Made by a program: the position numbers and the translations under genes
Notes under the pieces: generated by a model
Database searches by the model: none
What the model saw: the letters and a program-made list of their open reading frames with translations, nothing else
Told to the model about the DNA's origin: nothing
Assembly (NCBI GenBank): GCA_902779315.1
Contig: CACZBC010000010.1
Coordinates: 1-48,769 of the forward strand
Length of the DNA: 48,769 nucleotides
Source: an uncultured Bacteroidales bacterium
GTDB lineage: Bacteria; Bacteroidota; Bacteroidia; Bacteroidales; Bacteroidaceae
Direction: 5' to 3'
Shown here: one piece after another, positions 25,829 through 40,619 of the stretch
How positions within the stretch are numbered: position 1 is the first letter of the stretch
Layout: the number at the start of each line of letters is the position of its first letter

Positions 25829-25960
25829 AAACGTCACACTAGTAAATCGTAAACGTCACACTAGTAAATCGTAAACGTCACACTAGTAAATCGCAAACGT
25901 CACACTAGATGTTTGCGATCATAACACTATACGTTTGCCAACGTCAAACGTTATGTTTTG
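25829..25960 (+). repeat. 22-bp-period intergenic array D (six units)
   Basis: Six contiguous 22-bp units begin at 25829, 25851, 25873, 25895, 25917 and 25939. The first three are nearly identical (AAAC-GTCACACTAG, then TAAATCG and one base); the fourth keeps the core, and the last two are diverged but keep phase. It lies in the 349-bp space between the divergent etf operon and the mannan operon; the remaining space holds only their promoter boxes. Confidence 0.95.
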
Positions 25961-25977: not shown

Positions 25978-27967
<1,990 letters not shown>

Positions 27968-28002
27968 GAAATCGAAAGGATGAAGAGGTGAAAAAGGAAG
28001 AG

Positions 28003-29196
28003 ATGAAGAAGCTGAGCCGTGAGGTCTACGAATGTCTCACGCAAAACATACTGCCGTTCTGGCTCGACAATATGCTCGACACAAAGCGAGGCGGATGGTA
28101 TGGGCAGATGACGGGAAAAGGCAGGGTGGAAAAGGAAGCTCCGCGAGGCGCCATTCTCTATGCCCGCCTGCTGTGGACGTTCAGCGCGGCATATCGCGTG
28201 CTCAAACACACAGAACACCTCAATGCCGCAACAATGACGAAAGACTATATCCTCGCACATTTCATGGACAAGGAATATGGCGGCACCTATTGGAGCGTAA
28301 CGGCAGATGGACAACCACTCGACACTAAGAAGCAATTCTATGCACAAGGCTTCATGCTTTATGGCTTCTCTGAATATGCGAGAGCAACAAGCAACGAGGA
28401 GGCTTTGCAGACCAGCATCGAACTCTTCAACATCATCGAGAACCACGCTTGGGACAACGAGTTCGGCGGCTACATAGAAGCTTGCAAGCGCGATTGGCAA
28501 CCTATTGAAGACATGCGCCTCTCTGCCAAAGACGAGAACTTTCCCAAGAGCCAGAACACGCACTTGCACATTATCGAACCTTATACAAACCTTCTGAAGG
28601 CAGGATTCGACAAGGCTGCTCCTGCCGTCAAAAAGCTCATCTCAATCTTCACAGACCGTATCCTCAACCCAGAATCGCACCACCTCGACTTGTTCTTCAG
28701 CATGGACTGGAAGCGGATGAGCACGACGGAAAGCTATGGGCACGACATCGAATGCTCCTGGTTGTTGCACGAAGCGGCCCTCGTGCTTGGTCGTACAGAT
28801 ATATTAAATAAGGTAGAGCCTGTCGTTCGCGAGGTGGCAAAGGCAAGCGAGAAGGGATTGGAGCCAGATGGTTCCATGATTTATGAAGGCGAACCAGACG
28901 GCACGAACTTCGACCACGACCGCCATTGGTGGGTGCAGGCCGAGGCTATAGTAGGGTTCTTCAACCTCTATCAGCACTTCGACGACGAGGTCGCGCTTGA
29001 CAAAGCACTGCGATGCTGGCAATACATCAAGGACCATCTTATCGACCACACGCATGGCGAATGGTACTGGAGCATCCACGATGATGGCAGCATTAACTTC
29101 GATGACGACCACGCCGGTTTCTGGAAATGTCCCTATCATAATGGCCGCATGTGCATGGAGTTGATAGAACGCATCGATGCCATGCTCAATACATAA
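28003..29196 (+). CDS. Cellobiose/mannobiose 2-epimerase (AGE family)
   Basis: This cytoplasmic enzyme (no signal peptide, 397 residues) epimerises the reducing sugar of beta-1,4-mannobiose to give mannosylglucose, the substrate of the GH130 enzyme in the same locus. The (alpha/alpha)6-barrel motifs are RGGWYGQM, YAQGFMLYGFSEY, SYGHDIECSWLL (H247, matching the catalytic His of characterised epimerases), HWWVQAEA and KCPYHNGRMC (H379, the second catalytic His). ATG 28003 follows an AAGGAAG sequence; longer in-frame starts overlap the esterase. The same gene set is known from the Bacteroides fragilis mannan pathway. Confidence 0.92.
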   Translation: MKKLSREVYECLTQNILPFWLDNMLDTKRGGWYGQMTGKGRVEKEAPRGAILYARLLWTFSAAYRVLKHTEHLNAATMTKDYILAHFMDKEYGGTYWSVTADGQPLDTKKQFYAQGFMLYGFSEYARATSNEEALQTSIELFNIIENHAWDNEFGGYIEACKRDWQPIEDMRLSAKDENFPKSQNTHLHIIEPYTNLLKAGFDKAAPAVKKLISIFTDRILNPESHHLDLFFSMDWKRMSTTESYGHDIECSWLLHEAALVLGRTDILNKVEPVVREVAKASEKGLEPDGSMIYEGEPDGTNFDHDRHWWVQAEAIVGFFNLYQHFDDEVALDKALRCWQYIKDHLIDHTHGEWYWSIHDDGSINFDDDHAGFWKCPYHNGRMCMELIERIDAMLNT

Positions 29197-29207
29197 ACAC
29201 ACGTATC

Positions 29208-30107
29208 ATGATGACACAAGATGCACCTTCAGAACAGGTAATGCGAGAGATTACACCGCTGTCTTCCAGCGACTGCTTCTATCTGGCCGACCGCCACAAA
29301 TCGTCGTTCGACTTCCCTATTCATAGCCATCCGGAATTTGAGCTCAACTTCATAGGCAATGCAGCGGGCGTGCGGCGTACAGTGGGAGACCATAGCGAAA
29401 CAATCGGCGACTACGACTTGGTACTCATTGCCAGTCCCAATCTGGAACATGTATGGGAGCAGGGGAAGTGCATCAGCAAGAACATTCGCGAGATTACAAT
29501 CCAGTTCACCTCTGACGTATTGCCCGAGCCCTTACTCAGTAAGAGCCAGTTCCATTCCATCCGCTGCATGCTCGACCGTGCTCGCTGCGGACTTGCTTTC
29601 TCGCAGTTCACCATTATGAAGGTATTCGGCAAGATAGATGAACTGACGCGTCAACAACGTGGCTTCCATGCCGTGCTGAGTTTCCTTGAACTGCTCTACG
29701 ATCTGTCGCTGGCCGACGACAGTCGCACCCTGTCCAGCTCTTCGTTTGCCCGCATAAAAACGAGCAACGAGAGCAGGCGTGTCAACAAGGTGCAGCAATA
29801 CATAGCAAGTCACTACGCCGAAGAGGTACGACTGGAAACGCTTGCCAACCTCGCAGGAATGACTCCCGTAGCCTTTTCCCGCTTCTTCCACCAGCGCACA
29901 GGTCGTTCACTCTCGGAATACATCATCGAAATCCGACTGGGCATCGCCGCTCGAATGCTGATTGACACCACCAAGATGGTTGCCGAGATTTGTTACGACT
30001 GCGGCTTCAACACGCTCTCCAACTTCAATCGCCTGTTCCGCAAGCACAAGGGCTGCACTCCCACGGCATTTCGCGAGAATTTCAACAAGAAGAAACTTAT
30101 TATTTGA
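29208..30107 (+). CDS. AraC-family transcription regulator
   Basis: The N-terminal half (~residues 20-140) is a cupin-like sensing domain (HSHPEFELNFIG, DLVLIASPNLEHVW). The C-terminal ~100 residues hold the two AraC helix-turn-helices (LETLANLAGMTPVAFSRFF and AEICYDCGFNTLSNFNRLF). At 299 residues it is typical. It sits 11 bp after the epimerase gene and 68 bp before the GH26-CE7 gene, so it probably senses a manno-oligosaccharide and controls this locus. Most polysaccharide loci of Bacteroides use hybrid two-component or SusR-type regulators, so an AraC regulator is less usual. The start could also be the next codon, Met 29211. Confidence 0.88.
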   Translation: MMTQDAPSEQVMREITPLSSSDCFYLADRHKSSFDFPIHSHPEFELNFIGNAAGVRRTVGDHSETIGDYDLVLIASPNLEHVWEQGKCISKNIREITIQFTSDVLPEPLLSKSQFHSIRCMLDRARCGLAFSQFTIMKVFGKIDELTRQQRGFHAVLSFLELLYDLSLADDSRTLSSSSFARIKTSNESRRVNKVQQYIASHYAEEVRLETLANLAGMTPVAFSRFFHQRTGRSLSEYIIEIRLGIAARMLIDTTKMVAEICYDCGFNTLSNFNRLFRKHKGCTPTAFRENFNKKKLII

Positions 30108-30175: not shown

Positions 30176-32449
30176 ATGAAACGCACTATTCTTTCTTTCC
30201 TTTTGCCTCTTCTGGCCTTAGCGATGCAAGCCCAGATTCAGGAACAACCCATCGACCGCGAAGCGACGGGACCAACGCGGAAACTTTACAATTATCTTCT
30301 TGACAAGGTTTGGGGCAAGCAAGTCCTGTCTGGATGTCAGGCACGATGGGACTACAACACCACGGATGCAGACGGCATCTATGAGCGAGCCGGCAAGTAT
30401 CCTGCCATCAACATCTTCGACTTCCAGCACTTCCGACAGCGCAACCTCAACTATATGGGGCCGACTGCCAAGGCATGGCATGATGCAGGCGGCATCGTGG
30501 GGTTCATCTGGCACTGGAGCGTCCCTGTTAGTGCAGACCTGTCGCCGAAAGACGGCTTCGCCTTCTATACTCCATCGGGAGCTGAAGGTCGTCGGCCAGG
30601 CACGCTCTTCTCTGCAAGAAGGGCTGTCCAGGAGGGCACGCCCGAGCAGCGCATCATCAACGAGAACCTCGATACCATTGTCCGTTACCTACTCCACTAT
30701 CAGCAGCAAGGCATCCCCATCCTGTGGCGTCCTTTCCACGAGGCAGCAGGCAACACGAACCGTGGCGGCAAAGCCTGGTTCTGGTGGGGCAACGACGGTG
30801 CCGAGGCATTCAAACAACTTTACCTATACACACAGCGCTACTTGATGGAGCGCGGTGTGCACAACCTCATCTACATATGGACATCCGAACTCGACGACGA
30901 TGATTGGTACCCGGGCGACGCGTATGTCGATGTCGTGGCACGCGACCAGTACCACGCACCATCGCAACACGGCTCCTTCAAGCAGCAGTTCGACCTTCTG
31001 CGCAGCAAGTACCCGTCGAAGATGCTCGCCTTGGCCGAATGCGACTGCGTGCCGAGCGCGGAGGCTATGGAGAACGACGATGCACGCTGGCTCTTTGTCG
31101 CTCCGTGGACTACGCCCTTCGTTTTCAGCAAGCAGAACGATGATGCCTTCTGGCGGCAGTTCCTCGCAGAGAAACTCATCCTGACGCGCGACGAGGTGAA
31201 TCGCGCCGGCTCGTATCGCCTGAGTATCAACAAGGAGAGCGGCATCTATGAGAAAGGAGAACGGGCTGTCGTCTCGTGTCATGCTGACCCCGTACCTTTT
31301 GATTCCCTTCACGTGCGCGTGTTATATAATAATAAGGTATGTCGCGAGTTCCGCTTGTTGCCAGCTTCGGTGGATTTCAACGTTTTGGAACAAGCATTGG
31401 ACAGCACTTGTGCCGTCATGGTGGAGGTGAAGGAACATACGGGTAAGCCAGAGGCCATCGGCTATGTAGTGGCACCAGATGGATTCCGTCCCGGTTACGA
31501 AGAGCCCGCCGACTTGATGCCTTACTGGGACAATCTGAAGAAGCAACTCAATGCGCTACCCATGCAGGTGAAGGCCGTGCCGTTGGATGTGCCGCAGCAT
31601 TATCAGGGAAAGTACACCTGTCAGGATGTGGAAATCAACTGCCTCGGTCCCGCTCCGGTGAGAGCCTACATGGCCAAGCCTGCGGGGGCAAAGAAGAAAT
31701 CGCTGCCCATCATCATCCTCTGTCGTGCGGCAGGCGTCAGTGGTAACTGGTGCCGCTGCTCGGTGAGTGAGTGCGTGGGCAATGCCGCCCTCGGAAACGG
31801 TGCCCTCAGCCTCGACATCAACGCCCACGGAATGCTCAACGGCCAAAGCGACGACTTCTATCGTATGCTCGAGGGCGGACAATTGCGAAACTACTATGAG
31901 CACAATGCAGCCGATCGCGAGACCTATTATTTCCGTGGAATGTACCTACGTCTCTTGCGTGCCATCGAATACATGACACGCCAGCCCGAGTGGGATGGAC
32001 GTCGCATCCTCGTCATCGGCGAAAGTCAGGGTGGCGGACAGGCAGTTGCTGCTGCCGGTCTGGACCCGCGCGTTTCAGCCATTGTACTCAATGTGCCGGC
32101 CATGCAGGACTTGGGTGGAGCCCACAAAGGGCGTCGCAGCGGATGGCCGCAACCCATAGAGAACCACCAACACCTCACTTCTGCACAACTTGACGCTACC
32201 CTGCCCTATTTCGACGGAGCCCTGCTCATCAGTCACTCGCGGGCAGAAATCTACTGCGAGATGGGCCTCATCGATACCACCTGCCCGCCGTCTGCCGTCT
32301 GGTCGTCGCTCAATAATGCGCCTGGCAAGAAGACGGTAAACTGCGTACCTTACCGCACACATGCCTGGCCATCGGGCCCCATTGCGTCCTCTTGGCGCGA
32401 GCAATACCTAAAGCCTCGCGAGGCGTTCATCGACAACTACCTGAAATAA
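30176..32449 (+). CDS. GH26 beta-mannanase fused to a complete CE7 acetylesterase
   Basis: The 757-residue exported enzyme has a signal peptide (1-20), a GH26 barrel (~25-345) with acid/base E189 in WRPFHEAAG and nucleophile E288 in LAECDC, then an Ig-like module (~350-445) and a CE7-type alpha/beta-hydrolase (~455-757). CE7 residues are S617 in GESQGGG, D700 in GLIDTT and H729 in YRTHAW. The Ig-like module plus CE7 part resembles a whole stand-alone acetyl xylan esterase of Bacteroides, so this looks like the joining of two full genes. It should cut mannan and deacetylate it in one protein. Alternative GH26 activities (exo-mannobiohydrolase) are possible. Confidence 0.9.
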   Translation: MKRTILSFLLPLLALAMQAQIQEQPIDREATGPTRKLYNYLLDKVWGKQVLSGCQARWDYNTTDADGIYERAGKYPAINIFDFQHFRQRNLNYMGPTAKAWHDAGGIVGFIWHWSVPVSADLSPKDGFAFYTPSGAEGRRPGTLFSARRAVQEGTPEQRIINENLDTIVRYLLHYQQQGIPILWRPFHEAAGNTNRGGKAWFWWGNDGAEAFKQLYLYTQRYLMERGVHNLIYIWTSELDDDDWYPGDAYVDVVARDQYHAPSQHGSFKQQFDLLRSKYPSKMLALAECDCVPSAEAMENDDARWLFVAPWTTPFVFSKQNDDAFWRQFLAEKLILTRDEVNRAGSYRLSINKESGIYEKGERAVVSCHADPVPFDSLHVRVLYNNKVCREFRLLPASVDFNVLEQALDSTCAVMVEVKEHTGKPEAIGYVVAPDGFRPGYEEPADLMPYWDNLKKQLNALPMQVKAVPLDVPQHYQGKYTCQDVEINCLGPAPVRAYMAKPAGAKKKSLPIIILCRAAGVSGNWCRCSVSECVGNAALGNGALSLDINAHGMLNGQSDDFYRMLEGGQLRNYYEHNAADRETYYFRGMYLRLLRAIEYMTRQPEWDGRRILVIGESQGGGQAVAAAGLDPRVSAIVLNVPAMQDLGGAHKGRRSGWPQPIENHQHLTSAQLDATLPYFDGALLISHSRAEIYCEMGLIDTTCPPSAVWSSLNNAPGKKTVNCVPYRTHAWPSGPIASSWREQYLKPREAFIDNYLK

Positions 32450-32521
32450 TCACGCTATCAGGAAATGACAAAAACATGCATAGGAAATGGACTGCCTGCA
32501 AACAACAAATAGGACACTTGA

Positions 32522-32631
32522 AAACGTCGCACGTGATGATGCCTATCGTCACACTAGTAAATTGCAATCGTCACACTAGTAAATTGCAAACGTCACACTA
32601 GATGATTGCCAACGTCGCACGTGACGTTTCC
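32522..32631 (+). repeat. 22-bp-period intergenic array E (five units)
   Basis: Units at 32522, 32544, 32566, 32588 and 32610, each 22 bp. Three carry GTCACACTAG and two carry GTCGCACGTG, so both core types of the other arrays occur together. It fills much of the 255-bp gap inside the mannan locus. No promoter box is seen between it and the next start. Confidence 0.9.
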
Positions 32632-32704: not shown

Positions 32705-35700
32705 ATGAAACAATTATCCCTCCTCACCCTATTGTTGGCACTGGCCATGAATGCCACAAGTGCCGTGCAAACCATTCGCATTACGAATCTCGAGCAGGGC
32801 AAGCAGTTCGATGGTATCGGAGCAGTCAACGGCGGCGGAGCCACCTCCGTGCTGCTCAAAGACTACCCTGAGCCGCAACGCTCGCAAATCATGGATATGG
32901 TCTATCGTCCCATGTTCGGAGCCAGCGTCAGTGCCATCCTGGTGGAAGTGCCGGGCGATGGCAACAGCACACAGGGCTCCATGCCCTCTCACAGCCATTA
33001 CAGGGGCGACCACAACTATCTGCGCGGCTACATGTGGTGGGTCATGCAAGAAGCCAAACGGCGCAACGAGGCATTGTCGCTCGACGCTACGAGTTGGAGC
33101 GCACCAGCCTGGGTGAACAACTTCTGGTCGGACGACATGGTGGACTACTATGTCGATTGGCTGCAGGGACTGCGCGAGGTGCACGGTCTGGAGTTGGATG
33201 CTCTGGGTTGCCACAACGAGAAAGGCTGGAATGCCGAGTTTGCCAAGAACTTGCGTAAGGCCATGAACGAACGCGGATTCAGCAGCGTAAAGCTGCACGG
33301 CTTCGGCAACTGGGGCAATCAGAAGATGGACTTTCTCAAACGGATGCAGGAAGACACAGAGCTGCGCGATGCCCTCGACGCCGTTTGCGCCCACACGTTC
33401 AGCGAGATACAACTTACCCCAGAACAACGCAAAATGGCAGAGGACATGGGCAAGCCCATCTGGAACAGCGAGGACCATGTCTATCTCCCCGGTTTCGACT
33501 GCCTCATCTCCATCGTGAAATGTTTCAACCAGAACTACATCATCAGCGGAGCAACTAAAGTTGTCAACTGGTACGACATAGGCGCCACTTATCCGCTGGA
33601 GCCTTACAGCAAGGAACCGCCGATGCTTCTCGCGCAAGAACCATGGAGCGGACACTATCTAGTACGCGAAGCACTATGGGGCTATGCCCATTATGGGCAG
33701 TTCACAAAAGTGGGATGGCGCTACATCGACGACGGTTGCCTCAACCTGCCCGACGGCGGTTCCATGGTTACCATGCGCGACCCGCAGACGGGCGACTATA
33801 GCATCATTGCCGAGACCAAGGGGGCGAAGCAGCCACAAACGATAAAAATTAAAGTGACAAACAAACTCTCTAAAGGCAAACTCTGCGTCTGGTACAGTGA
33901 TGCGCAACAACAATTCGTGCGTCTGGACGAGATCACCCCACGGGGCGGCAGTTTCTCCATCACGCTGAAACCCGATGCAGTCTATTCCCTTTCCACAACA
34001 ACAGGGCAGCAGAAAGGCTCGTTCGACGACGTTCCCGCTTCCAAGCCCTTCCCTATCCCATACGAAGACAACTTAGAGCAATACCAGAATCCTGCTGAGT
34101 GGGGCTATCTGCCGCACTATTTGGCAGACCTGATTGGGTGCTTCGAACTCGTGCCAACGCCATCGGGAAGCGGTCTGCCCTCTGTTCCCAACTCCACTTG
34201 CATTCGTCAGGTGGTAGGCTCCCACACGCTCAGTTGGGCACCCGAATGGCATCACTACACCATCCTCGGCGATGCCGGCTGGACAGACTACGAGATAAGT
34301 GCCGACGTGATGCTCAACCCAGGCGACGAGGCCGGCGTGATGGGTCGAATCTGCGATGTGGGTTCCGGCTATGGCATTTGGGCCAAGGGCTACTATCTGA
34401 AGTTGGACGACAAGGGGAAGGTGACGCTTATTCTTACCCGCGGCAAGCGCGACAAGAAGGAACTCATTGGCGACAAGGAGCAACAGGCCATCATCCTCGC
34501 TCGAAAGGACGTAGAGGTGGGAGGCGAGTACACGTTGGACGAGAGCGAGGTAAGCGGCATCAAGGCTCTGCAATGGCACAACCTCAGACTTCGCTTCGAA
34601 GGCGACCGCATCTCGGGCTACGTTGATGGCATTGAGGTGGTAAAGGCCACATCCGACCACTATGGCCGTGGCATGGCAGGACTCATTGCTCCCCTGCACG
34701 AACGCAACATCAGCACGCCATACTTCGACAATTTGAAAATCATACCCATCGGCCGCACAAAAGCAACACAAACCACAGTTCCTGCGATTCCGCCACTTTA
34801 CCTGGCAAGTCCGCAAGGCACGGGACGAGATGCATTGCTCCAACGCATGAAAAGCCTCAACAATCGTGGCATCATGTTCGGACATCAGGACGATCCCTTC
34901 TATGGACTTGATTGGGACGACCGCTCTGCTGCCGGAGGACATTCCGATGTCTTGGCAACTTGTGGTGATTACCCCGCCGTAATGGGCTTCGAACTTGGCG
35001 GCATCGAAATGGGTGATGCGAAGAGTCTGGACAGCGTGCCCTTTGCCCGAATCCGGGAAGAGTTGCTTGCACTTGTGCGTCGCGGCGGCATCGCCACCAT
35101 ATCCTGGCATCCGCGCAACCCGCTGACAGGTGGCACGGCGTGGGACAACAAGAATGCCACTGTCGTCCGCAGCATTCTTCCTGGCGGCAGTCAACATCAA
35201 AAGTTCCAAACATGGATGCTGCGCCTATCCTCTTTTCTCCAATCGTTGAAAGACGAGCAGGGGTATCCCGTTCCTTTTATCTTTCGTCCTTGGCATGAGA
35301 ACAATGGCGGCTGGTTCTGGTGGGGCAAGGGACTCTGTTCTGCGGAGGAATACAAAGCGCTGTGGAACTGCCTGCAAGACCACCTACTTGCCGATGGCCT
35401 CACGAACATCGTATGGAGCTGGAGCCCGAACTACGGCATGAAAGGTGATGACTTCGACACCTATCCGGGCGACGACCGTGTGGACATCATCGGTCTCGAT
35501 GCTTATCAGCAACGAAATGGTGAGGAGGCCTTCATCCGCACGCTCAGCGAAGACCTCACTCGGCTTTGCGACTATGCCAAGAAGGCCAATCGCCTTGTCG
35601 CTCTCACAGAATGTGGCTTTCAGAATCTTCCCGACCCAACTTGGTGGACGCGCGTACTGAAACCGCAAATCGAGAAGTTTCCCCTCAGCTACTTCCTCGT

Positions 35701-35821
35701 TTGGCGCAACGCCGACCACCGGCAGTACTTTGCTCCTGCGCCGAGCACCAAGGATGCTCCCGACTTCCGCAAAATGGTCAAGGACAAGAAGATATTGATG
35801 CTGAAAGACATTGTTGATTGA
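32705..35821 (+). CDS. GH59 galactocerebrosidase-like beta-galactosidase fused to GH26 beta-mannanase
   Basis: The 1038-residue exported protein has a signal peptide (1-20), then a region that follows mammalian galactocerebrosidase from end to end: FDGIGAVNGGGATS, DYPEPQRSQI, SEDHVYL, QEPWSGHY (~311-318), a beta-sandwich (~335-445) and a lectin-like domain (~450-680). GH59 acid/base E172 (CHNEKGW) and nucleophile E256 (WNSED) are both kept. A short linker leads to a GH26 domain (~700-1035) starting RGIMFGHQDD, with acid/base E865 (RPWHENNGG) and nucleophile E969 (LTECGF). GH59 removes beta-linked galactose; GH26 cuts beta-mannan. I know of no described GH59-GH26 fusion. ATG 32705 is the only start that gives a signal peptide. 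Confidence 0.9.
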   Translation: MKQLSLLTLLLALAMNATSAVQTIRITNLEQGKQFDGIGAVNGGGATSVLLKDYPEPQRSQIMDMVYRPMFGASVSAILVEVPGDGNSTQGSMPSHSHYRGDHNYLRGYMWWVMQEAKRRNEALSLDATSWSAPAWVNNFWSDDMVDYYVDWLQGLREVHGLELDALGCHNEKGWNAEFAKNLRKAMNERGFSSVKLHGFGNWGNQKMDFLKRMQEDTELRDALDAVCAHTFSEIQLTPEQRKMAEDMGKPIWNSEDHVYLPGFDCLISIVKCFNQNYIISGATKVVNWYDIGATYPLEPYSKEPPMLLAQEPWSGHYLVREALWGYAHYGQFTKVGWRYIDDGCLNLPDGGSMVTMRDPQTGDYSIIAETKGAKQPQTIKIKVTNKLSKGKLCVWYSDAQQQFVRLDEITPRGGSFSITLKPDAVYSLSTTTGQQKGSFDDVPASKPFPIPYEDNLEQYQNPAEWGYLPHYLADLIGCFELVPTPSGSGLPSVPNSTCIRQVVGSHTLSWAPEWHHYTILGDAGWTDYEISADVMLNPGDEAGVMGRICDVGSGYGIWAKGYYLKLDDKGKVTLILTRGKRDKKELIGDKEQQAIILARKDVEVGGEYTLDESEVSGIKALQWHNLRLRFEGDRISGYVDGIEVVKATSDHYGRGMAGLIAPLHERNISTPYFDNLKIIPIGRTKATQTTVPAIPPLYLASPQGTGRDALLQRMKSLNNRGIMFGHQDDPFYGLDWDDRSAAGGHSDVLATCGDYPAVMGFELGGIEMGDAKSLDSVPFARIREELLALVRRGGIATISWHPRNPLTGGTAWDNKNATVVRSILPGGSQHQKFQTWMLRLSSFLQSLKDEQGYPVPFIFRPWHENNGGWFWWGKGLCSAEEYKALWNCLQDHLLADGLTNIVWSWSPNYGMKGDDFDTYPGDDRVDIIGLDAYQQRNGEEAFIRTLSEDLTRLCDYAKKANRLVALTECGFQNLPDPTWWTRVLKPQIEKFPLSYFLVWRNADHRQYFAPAPSTKDAPDFRKMVKDKKILMLKDIVD

Positions 35822-35852
35822 AAATTGAAAATTGAAGATTGATAATTGAACT
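35818..35852 (+). repeat. Five tandem TTGAAAA-type heptamers
   Basis: Units at 35818, 35825, 35832, 35839 and 35846 overlap the stop codon (35819-35821) of the GH59-GH26 gene and end just before the GH36 ATG at 35860. Confidence 0.8.
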
Positions 35853-35859
35853 ATACAAC

Positions 35860-38043
35860 ATGAAAAGATTTATCCTGTTTCTGCTCCCACTGCTGGGAAC
35901 ATTAAGTGCCAACGCATGGAGTGGCGAAGTAGCCATAGAGACGCCAAACACTGTGCTTGTCCTATATGCCAGAGAGGGTGGCGACCTGCGCATGGCCTAT
36001 TATGGCTCGCGTGGCGTCAGTCTACAGGAACTACGCGACGCTGGCGCTAATTTGAACTCGTCTGCCCTACCGGCCTTTGGCACGGTGGACATGGTGCAGT
36101 TGCCCGCTCTGCAGGTGCTTCATGCCGATGGCGACCTGAACCTTGAACTGAAAGTTGAGAGCTATGAACTGAAAACAGAGGATGCTGCGAAGACTCACAT
36201 CTTCATGATGCAGGACAAGTTGCAGCCCGTCACAGTCAAAGTCTTCTACAAAGCATACAATAAGGTGGACATCATCGAGACGTGGACAGAGATTGAGAAC
36301 GCCGAGAAAAAGCCCGTCACCCTGAAACGATATGATTCAGGGCATCTGGTTCTGCGTCAAGGTGAAGTGTGGATAACTCACATGCACGGCAATTGGGCTG
36401 CAGAGACGGAACCCACTTCAGAGCCTCTGACGGGCGGCGTCAAGATCATCCGCAACACCGACGGCACCCGAAACGCTCATCTTGATGCGCCCGAGGTGAT
36501 GGTCTCTCTCGACGGAAGTCCTCAGGAAAACAGCGGCCGAGTCATAGGTGCTGCTCTGTGTTGGAGTGGCAACTTTGAACTTCGCTTCAATACCATATCC
36601 CACAAAGAGCATCATTTCTATGCAGGCATCGACCCACAATCCAGCGAATATGTCCTCGACCCGAGGCAAACGTTCGAGACACCGCATCTGGCTCTTACCT
36701 TCTCCAATGAAGGTTTGAGCGGAGCTAGCCGCAACTTCCACCGTTGGGCACGCACAGAGGGCATGTTGCACCGCGGAATGAAGACGGGCGATATCCTCCT
36801 AAACTCGTGGGAAGGCCTGTATTTCAACATCGACGAGGCGCGCATGATTGCCATGATGGACGACATCAGTCAGTTCGGCGGCGAGTTGTTCGTCATGGAC
36901 GACGGTTGGTTTGGCGACAAGTATCCGCGTAAGGACGACACTTCTAGTCTGGGCGACTGGGTGGTGGACAAGAACAAACTGCCTAACGGACTCGATGCTC
37001 TGACGAAAGCGGCTCGCGAGCGCGGCATCAAGTTCGGCATATGGATAGAACCTGAGATGGTGAACACGAAAAGCGAACTCTTCGAGCGCCATCCCGAATG
37101 GGTCTTGCAAACGAAGGGACGTGACCTGAAACTGGGGCGCGGGGGCACACAATTGGTGCTCGACATGACCAATCCCGAGGTGCAGGACTTTGTATTCAAG
37201 ATTGTGGATGACCTGCTCACGCAAAACCCCGAGATAGCATACATCAAATGGGATGCAAACGCCTCCATCCAGAACTTCGGTTCGCTCTATCTACCCAAGA
37301 ATAGACAGCAAAACCTCTATGTCGATTACCACCTCGGCCTACTCAAGACCCTCAAACGCATTCGGGCCAAGTATCCCGACATTGTCATTCAGGATTGTGC
37401 CTCGGGCGGAGGACGTGCCAACTATGGCTTGCTGCCCTATTTCGACGAGTTCTGGACCTCCGACAATACCGACGCCTTGCAGCGTGTCTTCATTCAGTGG
37501 GGCACGTCGCTCTTCTTCCCCGCCAACGCTATGGCCTGCCACATCAACCATTGCCCATACTGGAACACTGGCGGTAGGGTCATTCCCATCAAGTTCCGCT
37601 GTGATGTAGCGATGTCGGGACGTCTCGGCATTGAACTTCAGCCAAAGGACATGACCGACGAGGAGCGCAAGCAGACGTCCACCTGCATGGCGGACTACAA
37701 ACAGTTGCGCCAGGTCGTGCAGACAGGCAACCTATATCGTCTCATCTCGCCTTACGACCAGAAGGGCATCTCCTCGCTGATGTACGTCGACGATGCGCGT
37801 CGCCAGGGCGTGTTGTTCGTCTATAAGATTGCCAACTATTACGACCAGCCCATTCCTCGCGTCCGTTTGGCCGGGCTCAATCCCGGTGCCACATACACCC
37901 TGACGGAAAAGAACGTGCGCGTGGGCCAAAAGCCCTGTGCGCTCTCAGGCAAACGGTTCACGGGTCGATTCCTCATGGAGGTCGGCCTCGAAATGCCGCT
38001 TCGCGAGGAATATGCCAGCCGCGTATTTTTCATTGAAAACTGA
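35860..38043 (+). CDS. Exported GH36 alpha-galactosidase
   Basis: The 727-residue enzyme with a signal peptide (1-20, ending SANA) removes alpha-1,6-galactose from galactomannan or its oligomers. It has the N-terminal beta-supersandwich, DDGWFGDKYPR near residue 347, nucleophile D465 in YIKWDANAS, CASGGGRANYG near 512-522 and acid/base D535 in SDNTDAL. A length of 700-730 is usual for tetrameric bacterial GH36 enzymes. ATG 35860 is chosen over an upstream TTG inside the heptamer repeat. It lies between the GH59-GH26 and GH130 genes of the same operon. Confidence 0.94.
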   Translation: MKRFILFLLPLLGTLSANAWSGEVAIETPNTVLVLYAREGGDLRMAYYGSRGVSLQELRDAGANLNSSALPAFGTVDMVQLPALQVLHADGDLNLELKVESYELKTEDAAKTHIFMMQDKLQPVTVKVFYKAYNKVDIIETWTEIENAEKKPVTLKRYDSGHLVLRQGEVWITHMHGNWAAETEPTSEPLTGGVKIIRNTDGTRNAHLDAPEVMVSLDGSPQENSGRVIGAALCWSGNFELRFNTISHKEHHFYAGIDPQSSEYVLDPRQTFETPHLALTFSNEGLSGASRNFHRWARTEGMLHRGMKTGDILLNSWEGLYFNIDEARMIAMMDDISQFGGELFVMDDGWFGDKYPRKDDTSSLGDWVVDKNKLPNGLDALTKAARERGIKFGIWIEPEMVNTKSELFERHPEWVLQTKGRDLKLGRGGTQLVLDMTNPEVQDFVFKIVDDLLTQNPEIAYIKWDANASIQNFGSLYLPKNRQQNLYVDYHLGLLKTLKRIRAKYPDIVIQDCASGGGRANYGLLPYFDEFWTSDNTDALQRVFIQWGTSLFFPANAMACHINHCPYWNTGGRVIPIKFRCDVAMSGRLGIELQPKDMTDEERKQTSTCMADYKQLRQVVQTGNLYRLISPYDQKGISSLMYVDDARRQGVLFVYKIANYYDQPIPRVRLAGLNPGATYTLTEKNVRVGQKPCALSGKRFTGRFLMEVGLEMPLREEYASRVFFIEN

Positions 38044-38062: not shown

Positions 38063-39229
38063 ATGACTTACGCAATAAGAAAGAAACAACTGTTTGAGAG
38101 GCATGAGGCTTTGCTTGCTCTGAAGAATGAACCCGAGGAATGGGGAAACGGCATCTACGAGAAGTATCAGCGCCCCATTCTGACTGCCGAGCACACGCCC
38201 TTGCACTGGCGCTACGATTTCTCGGAAAAGGACAACCCATACCTGATGCAGCGTATCATGATGAATGCCGTGCTGAATGCCGGAGCCATCAAACTGGACG
38301 GCCGATACCTGTTGGTGTGTCGTGTGGAAGGTGCTGACCGCAAGTCGTTCTTCGCCGTGGCAGAGAGTCCAAATGGCATCGACGGCTTCCGCTTCTGGGA
38401 CGAGCCTATCACAATGCCTGAAGACGTCATTCCTGCCACCAACATCTACGATATGCGCGTCACGCAGCACGAAGACGGATGGATTTACGGCGTGTTCTGT
38501 GCCGAGCGTCACGACGACTCGCAACCCGGCAACCTCAGTGCCGCCACCGCCACTGCCGCCATTGCCCGCACAAAAGACCTCATAACTTGGGAACGTCTGC
38601 CAGACCTGAAAAGCCGTAGTCAGCAACGCAATGTCGTGCTTCATCCCGAATTCGTGGACGGCAAATGTGCTTTCTACACTCGTCCTCAAGACGGATTCAT
38701 AGATACAGGCAGCGGTGGAGGCATAGGTTGGGCGCTGGTGGACGACATCACTCATGCCGAGATTAAAAAGGAAATAATCATCAATCCGCGGCACTACCAC
38801 ACCATCCAAGAAGTGAAGAACGGCGAAGGACCGGCTCCGCTGAAAACTGCGAAAGGTTGGTTGCACTTGGCCCATGGCGTGCGAGGCACAGCCGATGGTC
38901 TGCGCTACGTACTGTATATGTATATGACAGCCCTCGACGACCCCACGCGTGTCATAGCCAAGCCTGGTGGCTGGTTCCTGGTGCCCGAAGGAAAGGAATA
39001 CGTGGGTGATGTGATGAATGTGGCTTTTTCCAATGGTTGGATTCTCGATGATGACGGGCGTGTCCTAATCTATTATGCTACAGCCGACACGCGTCTGCAC
39101 GTGGCAGTAAGTTCGCTTGACCGCCTTATTGACTATTGTATGAATACGCCCGAAGACGGACTGACAACAGGAGCAAGCGTGGAAACCATCAAACAACTTA
39201 TCCGAAAGAATAATGGCACACATAAGTGA
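38063..39229 (+). CDS. GH130 4-O-beta-mannosylglucose phosphorylase
   Basis: The cytoplasmic enzyme (388 residues, no signal peptide) uses phosphate to split mannosylglucose into mannose-1-phosphate and glucose, downstream of the 2-epimerase. The catalytic Asp is D130 in NIYDMRVTQ, matching D131 of the B. fragilis enzyme. [13 protein letters not shown] near residue 188 and the [12 protein letters not shown] loop are also of the GH130 mannosylglucose phosphorylase type. The start of the transporter gene lies 17 bp inside its 3' end, suggesting translational coupling. A mannan-oligosaccharide phosphorylase activity is the main alternative. Confidence 0.93.
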
Positions 39230-40619
39230 AAAAGTAGGTTACGGCCTGGGCGACATGTCGTCGTCGATGTTCTGGAAGGTGTTCTCGTATTACCTGCCCT
39301 TCTTCTATTCCAATGTCTTTGGACTTAGCCTTGTAGATGCGGGCATATTGGTACTCGTTACTCGCATATGGGATGCCGTCAGCGACCCAATGATGGGCAT
39401 CATAGCCGACCGTACCCAAACGCGTTGGGGCAAATATCGGCCATACTTGTTGTTTGTGGCCTCACTGTTCAGCATTGCAGGCATATTGCTCTTCACCACA
39501 CCCGACTGGTCATATGGCGCCAAACTCATTTACGCCTACATTACCTACATATTGATGATGACAATCTATACGGCCATCAATGTGCCTTACGGGGCCATGT
39601 TGGGAGTGATGACTGACGATTCGCAAGAGAAGACCGTCTTTTCCTCTTTCCGCATGTTCTTTGCTTATGGCGGTTCGTTTATCGCCTTGGCCGCATGGGA
39701 GCCTTTGGTGAATTTCTTTAAGAGCGATTCTTCCATCACACAGGCTTGGCAACATGCCATGATGGTTATTGCCGCAGCTTGCTTCGTGCTCTTTCTGCTA
39801 ACATTTGCCTTGACGCGTGAACGCCTGAAGACCGTCTCCTCGGTAAGCATTGGGAAGGACTTCCGCTCGCTCCTCTCGAACCGCCCGTGGTGGCTGCTCA
39901 TTGGTGCTGCCCTTTGCTTCAACCTCTTTTGTACGGTTCGAGGGGCTACTGTCGCTTATTATTTTGCAGACATCATCGGCTTCAATGCCACAATCAACTT
40001 GTCGTTTTTCAGTTTAGATCTTTCGCTTCTCTTCTACGCTGGACTTTTCCTTAGCGTAGGCGAGGTGTCAAATATGATAGGTGTGGCTTGTACTGTTCCG
40101 CTTGCCAAACGTTTCGGAAAGAAGTCGCTGTTCATGGCTGTCAACGCCGCACTCCTGGTGTTGAGTATCGCCTTCTTCTTTATTCCCGTTTCGCCCGTCG
40201 GCTTCTGGATCATGCTCCTTTTCCAGGTTCTCATCAGTATACTCACAGGCGTGATGTCGCCTCTCGTATGGTCGATGTATGCCGATGTGAGCGATTATGC
40301 CGAATTGCGCTACAAGACGGCTTCCACGGGGCTTATCTTCTCCTCGAGTTCGATGGCACAGAAGTTTGGCGGAGCCATTGGTGGCGCTGCTGTCCTTTGG
40401 TTGCTTTCCGCTTGTGGATATACACCACGCAGCGAAGAGCAATTGGTGGGTCAAGCGGTCATTGCACAGCCCGAATCGGCACTCCTTTGCCTCCGAATGC
40501 TAATGTCGTTCATTCCCGCTGCCGTGGCACTTCTCGCCATGTTTGCCTGTCACTTCTACCCGCTGACAACGGAACGCGTGGCCGAAATCAATCGGCAACT
40601 GAAGGAAACACGACTTTAA
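39213..40619 (+). CDS. GPH-family cation/sugar symporter (probable mannobiose importer)
   Basis: The 468-residue inner-membrane protein of the glycoside-pentoside-hexuronide group has about 12 hydrophobic helices. The family motif [28 protein letters not shown] spans loop 2-3 (near residues 53-80). It overlaps the GH130 gene by 17 bp, as expected for coupled uptake and phosphorolysis. Manno-oligosaccharides are the likely cargo from context. The last gene of the locus, it ends in a TTAA shared with the stop codon of the opposing SPFH gene. Confidence 0.92.

Follow-up and report, generated by a model that had tools for sequence, protein, structure and literature searches.

A GH59 domain of galactocerebrosidase type fused to a GH26 mannanase in gut Bacteroidales, with a possible role in debranching beta-galactosylated mannan

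What would a relative of galactocerebrosidase (GALC) do on the same polypeptide as a mannanase? GH59 has mainly been studied as the enzyme missing in Krabbe disease, and to our knowledge GALC is the only characterised relative. Both GH59 and GH26 are known families, and multi-enzyme fusions are ordinary in such bacteria. The question is raised by one gene in a stretch of 48,769 nucleotides (hereafter the window) from an uncultured, Prevotella-related gut Bacteroidales bacterium.

Positions 32705-35821 of the forward strand hold a single open reading frame whose 1038-residue product, predicted to be exported, carries GH59 (residues 22-683) followed by a GH26 mannanase (704-1038). The features of this gene are the following.

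32705..32767, + strand: signal peptide, residues 1-21, read from the sequence
32768..34003, + strand: GH59 catalytic barrel and beta-sandwich, residues 22-433
33218..33220, + strand: codon of E172, acid/base, equivalent to GALC E182 by alignment, invariant in 44/44 rows
33470..33472, + strand: codon of E256, nucleophile, equivalent to GALC E258 by alignment, invariant in 44/44 rows
34061..34753, + strand: GH59 C-terminal lectin-like domain, residues 453-683 (PF21708, 35.9 bits; within the GALC structural match over 22-683)
34754..34813, + strand: linker, residues 684-703, between the two structural matches, with low pLDDT at 701-705
34814..35818, + strand: GH26 beta-mannanase domain of BoMan26A type, residues 704-1038
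35297..35299, + strand: codon of E865 in GH26, aligned with a glutamate of 4zxo, in 19/19 rows having the domain
35609..35611, + strand: codon of E969 in GH26, aligned with a glutamate of 4zxo, in 19/19 rows having the domain

The GH59 half scored 281 bits against a cut-off of 27, with the profile covered in full (1-294), and no other clan A model matched this half at E up to 1. The GH26 half also scored over its cut-off and has two catalytic glutamates, of which we take E865 to be the acid/base and E969 the nucleophile. Structure prediction gave a match to GALC over residues 22-683 and to 4zxo for the GH26 part. Thus, the profile matches, the structural matches and the catalytic glutamates in place bear out what the earlier note had read from the letters, namely one protein carrying both enzymes, with GH59 rather than another clan A family at its N-terminus. 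Both halves are under strong purifying selection: dN/dS was ~0.05-0.15 in GH59 and GH26 alike over 18 relatives where dS was computable, dS being saturated for GH59 in three comparisons and for GH26 in three, and other dS values above 1.5 being rough. Because no lipobox cysteine was seen on reading the signal peptide, the protein is probably not a lipoprotein and would reside in the periplasm or be secreted.

Comparison with mouse GALC (3zr5, 4ccc, 5nxb) shows a shared three-domain fold over 611 residues with both catalytic glutamates. The GALC site consists of Thr109, Trp151, Asn197, Arg396, Glu198 and Glu274 (PMC12429000, excerpt), in a numbering 16 above that used here for E182, E258 and R380. 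By alignment and hand count these residues correspond to T89, W131, N171, K381, E172 and E256. W131, N171, E172 and E256 are invariant in all 44 aligned GH59 rows, and T89 is T in 42 of them. The same invariance holds for W289 and for W511 of the lectin domain, which align with GALC W291 and W524. In contrast, position 381, aligned to GALC R380 (R396 in the other numbering), varies, with K in 19 of the 44 rows, R in 2 and other residues in the rest, in a loop whose alignment is uncertain. Since the R380W substitution disrupts GALC activity (PMC5031207, excerpt), one has to assume either a misaligned loop or a different residue that takes over here. As judged from these alignments, the galactose pocket appears mostly retained, one arginine excepted. 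Also unlike GALC, the saposin A contacts R520 and T523 (PMC5764952, excerpt) are not conserved, with H507 and S510 at these positions by alignment and hand count. GALC is moreover lysosomal, whereas the bacterial GH59 is fused to a mannanase and lies in a mannan cluster.

This cluster is arranged on the same strand in the order esterase, epimerase, AraC regulator, GH26-AXE1, GH59-GH26, GH36, GH130 and MFS carrier:

26009..27967, + strand: two-domain carbohydrate esterase, SASA plus putative esterase (Pfam)
27910..29196, + strand: N-acylglucosamine 2-epimerase family protein (PF07221, 139.5 bits)
29151..30107, + strand: AraC-type regulator (Pfam)
30176..32449, + strand: GH26 mannanase fused to an AXE1-type acetyl esterase (PF02156, 133.7 bits; PF05448, 109.5 bits)
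35839..38043, + strand: GH36 alpha-galactosidase (PF02065, 370 bits; PF16875; PF16874); the listed start is TTG, with an ATG at 35860
38063..39229, + strand: GH130 mannosyl-oligosaccharide phosphorylase (PF04041, 75 bits)
39213..40619, + strand: MFS-type sugar transporter, MFS_2 (PF13347, 312 bits)

The setting of plant beta-mannan breakdown, as first proposed from the sequence, is supported by the GH26-esterase, epimerase, GH36, GH130 and transporter genes that adjoin the fusion gene. The epimerase is likely a cellobiose/mannobiose epimerase, a specificity deduced from the cluster. A similar GH26, GH26, GH36 and GH130 set is described for the type 1 beta-mannan locus of Bacteroides ovatus, where, unlike here, no GH59 is named in the excerpt (PMC5094572). 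The GH26 domain of the fusion is 42-45% identical to BoMan26A (4zxo), which is a lone GH26 domain. A Pfam scan of 30 window ORFs besides the fusion gene, covering the longer ORFs short of the right end at about 47.6-48.8 kb, found no SusC or SusD homologue, hence none of the adjacent pairs that mark SusC/SusD-containing Bacteroidetes PULs. Elsewhere in the same genome, no mannan cluster was found in the 8 ORFs scanned around the two other GH26 sites (C69 and C57), and a further GH59 match remained under the cut-off at 25.2 bits. As a separate observation, a 22-bp repeat unit (around CGTCACACTAGTAAATTGCAA) forms short intergenic arrays at 25840-25910 and 32520-32630 of the window; the genome holds 405 matches at up to 3 mismatches, the reversed control 0.

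From this setting we consider it quite probable that the GH59 half debranches mannan, whichever beta-galactosyl side group it removes. Concerning the protein as a whole, we lean towards an enzyme of the beta-mannan cluster with two catalytic domains, located in the periplasm or secreted, in which GH59 would act as an exo-acting retaining beta-galactosidase. This domain would take terminal beta-galactose off side chains, be it on (galacto)glucomannan itself or on oligosaccharides derived from it. As its main target we favour, at somewhat better than an even chance, eudicot beta-galactoglucomannan (beta-GGM), and within it the beta-1,2-Gal of the beta-1,2-Gal-alpha-1,6-Gal side chains that this polymer bears (PMC9614514, excerpt). 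Oligosaccharides of beta-GGM that carry beta-Gal resist alpha-galactosidase until treated with beta-galactosidase, and the backbone is cleaved by a GH26 mannanase (same excerpt). In the fusion's cluster, removal of beta-Gal would give the GH36 encoded just downstream access to the alpha-Gal. The tethered GH26 and the GH26-acetylesterase would cleave the freed backbone, and short products would be imported by the MFS carrier and split along the epimerase/GH130 route. The cluster holds one candidate enzyme per bond of beta-GGM: GH59, GH36, GH26, acetyl esterases, epimerase and GH130. The beta-galactosidase activity, the 1,2 linkage, the order of steps and the cell location are what we infer. PMC10735049 (excerpt) sampled monocots and early angiosperms and did not detect beta-Gal in them, so that a beta-GGM substrate would not derive from grass.

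To see how far the fusion extends, PF02057 was searched at E up to 0.001 in a sample of the family, where 121 of 399 genomes matched, 33 strongly (E below 1e-78, the window's own genome counted) and the rest weakly. At E up to 1e-30, GH59 was matched in 10/393 genomes of an order sample, in 3/395 of a phylum sample (one of the three, G999, outside the order) and in 55/139 of the genus; all these samples overlap. The plasmid search gave a single match, from Kitasatospora, at 32% identity. A scan of named genomes yielded 40 loci, some coinciding with family-sample loci, and as its query was an alignment of six fusion proteins it is biased towards fusions. Twenty of the 40 carry GH59-GH26 in one frame, which in L104 runs off the contig, and 13 a complete GH59 alone; the remainder are L105, fused with a stop in GH26, L119 with GH26-GH59, and five in which the contig end cuts GH59 (L121, L123, L128, L131 and L133, omitted from the fused/unfused count). 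In 12 of the 20 fused loci the titles name rumen, reticulum or omasum, from sheep, goat, yak, water buffalo and roe deer, while the remaining titles give no source. GH59 frames of at least 980 aa are present in 21 genomes of the genus, the window's among them, and GH26 lies in the same frame in all 20 others. The fusion also occurs in two more genera of the family, intact in L047 and interrupted in L048. Altogether, the search for the same architecture elsewhere, suggested in the earlier note, shows that the fusion is no singular oddity and recurs in many Bacteroidales genomes. The stop in L105 (733-3864) may be error or decay.

Neighbours were counted by phmmer over 21 fused loci (the 20 intact ones plus L105). 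Of these, 18 have GH130, 16 the epimerase and 14 GH36; six show none of GH36, GH27 and GH31 within the region retrieved, and L104 has GH31 alone, without GH36 or GH27. Among the 13 complete stand-alone GH59 loci, eight have GH26 nearby, seven of them with a GH27 alpha-galactosidase; the other five have neither, two of these on contigs shorter than 6 kb. GH59 relatives also adjoin GH115 (L036, L055), GH98 (L036), GH127 (L035), GH43 (L033) and GH27 (L037), and GH31 lies near GH59 in L042, L104 and L132. Because close stand-alone GH59s occupy such non-mannan loci, the family may serve several beta-galactosides, and its specificity probably varies; several beta-galactosyl-like caps are probably served. 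In L036:5860-13559 and L055:8392-13089, where GH59 adjoins a GH115 alpha-glucuronidase (in L036 also GH98), it perhaps removes, as a speculation, an alpha-L-arabinopyranose or galactose cap from xylan glucuronic acid. Also seen near GH59 in mannan loci were proteins of 1050-1118 aa (L042:3404-6757, L046:5106-8384, L127:1-3150) with weak F5/8 type C matches, the L042 protein having a ricin-lectin-like match as well; no catalytic Pfam domain was found in them at E up to 0.001.

Several points speak against the beta-GGM reading: the variable R380 position, the six fused loci without GH36, GH27 or GH31, the non-mannan relatives, the lack of beta-Gal in the sampled monocots, and a SusC/SusD route of glycan entry not found among the 30 ORFs scanned. 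The target first suggested, a beta-galactosyl group on a mannan backbone, stands in so far as it fits the neighbourhood and the chemistry of beta-GGM (PMC9614514, PMC10735049, excerpts), and is weakened by GH59s outside mannan loci and by the unconserved arginine. The variable R380 position and the non-mannan relatives can also be taken to mean that GH59, within the mannan system, debranches another bond, either a different beta-galactosyl linkage or alpha-L-arabinopyranosyl, on hemicellulose fragments that accompany mannan, e.g. those of xyloglucan. Alpha-L-arabinopyranosyl sterically resembles beta-D-Gal, and the GH115, GH98, GH127, GH43 and GH31 neighbours make it probable that specificity varies in the family. 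However, the fused forms accompany mannan genes (GH130 as counted above) and GH59 is interchanged with a GH27 alpha-galactosidase as the partner of GH26, so that we regard this explanation as rather unlikely.

It is far less probable that the substrates of GH59 are plant galactolipids or glycosphingolipids, by analogy with animal GALC, and that its fusion to GH26 is incidental. Forage is rich in galactolipid, MGDG bears beta-Gal and DGDG alpha-1,6-Gal, which the GH36 could strip first, and the only characterised relative we know of is GALC itself. Against this, no lipase domain was found in the eight cluster genes scanned (GDSL esterases are present in some related loci), mannanase fusions exist in two orders, and both saposin A contacts are replaced. 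That the GH59 domain has no catalytic activity, or serves the mannanase as a carbohydrate-binding module, could be argued from the unconserved substrate-binding arginine; it is very improbable given strong purifying selection and the invariance of both glutamates, N171, W131 and W289 in all 44 rows. Finally, an assembly chimera or a frameshift joining two genes, imaginable in a draft genome of 107 contigs and 84% completeness with relatives that have separate GH59 genes, is ruled out to near certainty by independent assemblies with the same continuous frame, namely 20 of the 40 named loci and 20/20 genus genomes, which settles that this is one gene rather than two.

Regarding the history of the gene, GH27 and GH26 were found in one frame in L112 (= L046), L115 (= L041), L127 and L132, by phmmer in four of four and by Pfam in two:

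L041:12349-14577, L046:297-2600, L127:12153-14294, L132:5842-8073: GH27-GH26 proteins

These proteins resemble the fusion in that an N-terminal galactosidase precedes a GH26 of the same lineage, in a similar locus; they differ in that this partner is an alpha-galactosidase and GH59 is a separate neighbouring gene. In a GH26 tree of 82 rows, built by a quick method, the four GH27-linked GH26 domains cluster with the GH59-GH26 ones, two of the latter, L107 and L109, falling among the four. In the loci analysed, the GH26 lineage of the fusion is thus the C-terminal partner of either GH59 (21 rows) or GH27 (4 rows), and therefore GH59 would take the place of a debranching galactosidase. The exception is L121:5067-6437, a long-branched GH26 of this lineage preceding an acetyl esterase piece, apparently a third arrangement. 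Apart from L121, no stand-alone gene of the lineage was seen in the GH59-anchored loci, where copies elsewhere could be missed because every locus was fetched via GH59.

In L119:8942-12040 the order is reversed (GH26-GH59), and its GH26 groups with the lineage usually fused to acetyl esterase; the reverse order and the different lineage point to an independent origin. Its sister on the GH59 tree, from which identical sequences and pieces spanning fewer than 550 residues were left out, is L045:5187-7442, with only a 48-residue GH26 stub before GH59. When the window gene was compared with L094, third-position identity was 84-100% through codon 519 but dropped to 38-63% beyond, and by both tree and dS the closest counterpart of the GH26 half is L129. 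The fusion gene therefore appears to be a mosaic, with a probable recombination breakpoint at around codon 520 (nt 34262 or so). The fullest version of our reading, with GH59 of gut Bacteroidales as a dedicated beta-1,2-galactosidase for beta-GGM and one GH26 lineage as a 'socket' in which intragenic recombination swaps GH27 and GH59 at the N-terminus, is tentative and falls somewhat short of an even chance.

Titles and abstracts of the open-licence PMC literature gave no description of a GH59-GH26 protein or of a GH59 role in mannan breakdown, which is a weak absence; in the same literature none was found of the GH27 exchange, the recurrence or the reverse-order GH26-GH59, nor any bacterial degradation system for beta-GGM, which was named in 2022. 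A Segatella copri glucomannan study does not mention GH59 in its excerpt (PMC12704710). The nearest case on beta-1,2-linked galactose is Bxy_22780 of Bacteroides xylanisolvens (PMC11739564, excerpt), a gut-Bacteroides beta-1,2-galactosidase. It belongs to GH35, however, and lies in a locus with SusC/SusD and a GH144 beta-1,2-glucanase, and that excerpt mentions neither GH26 nor galactoglucomannan.

If the debranching reading is true, the GH59 family would gain a second, plant-polysaccharide role, since fusions in both orders link it to the breakdown of mannan. It would include relatives that may work without saposin, and the fusion would provide a candidate tool enzyme for beta-GGM, a newly found polymer of the plant wall.
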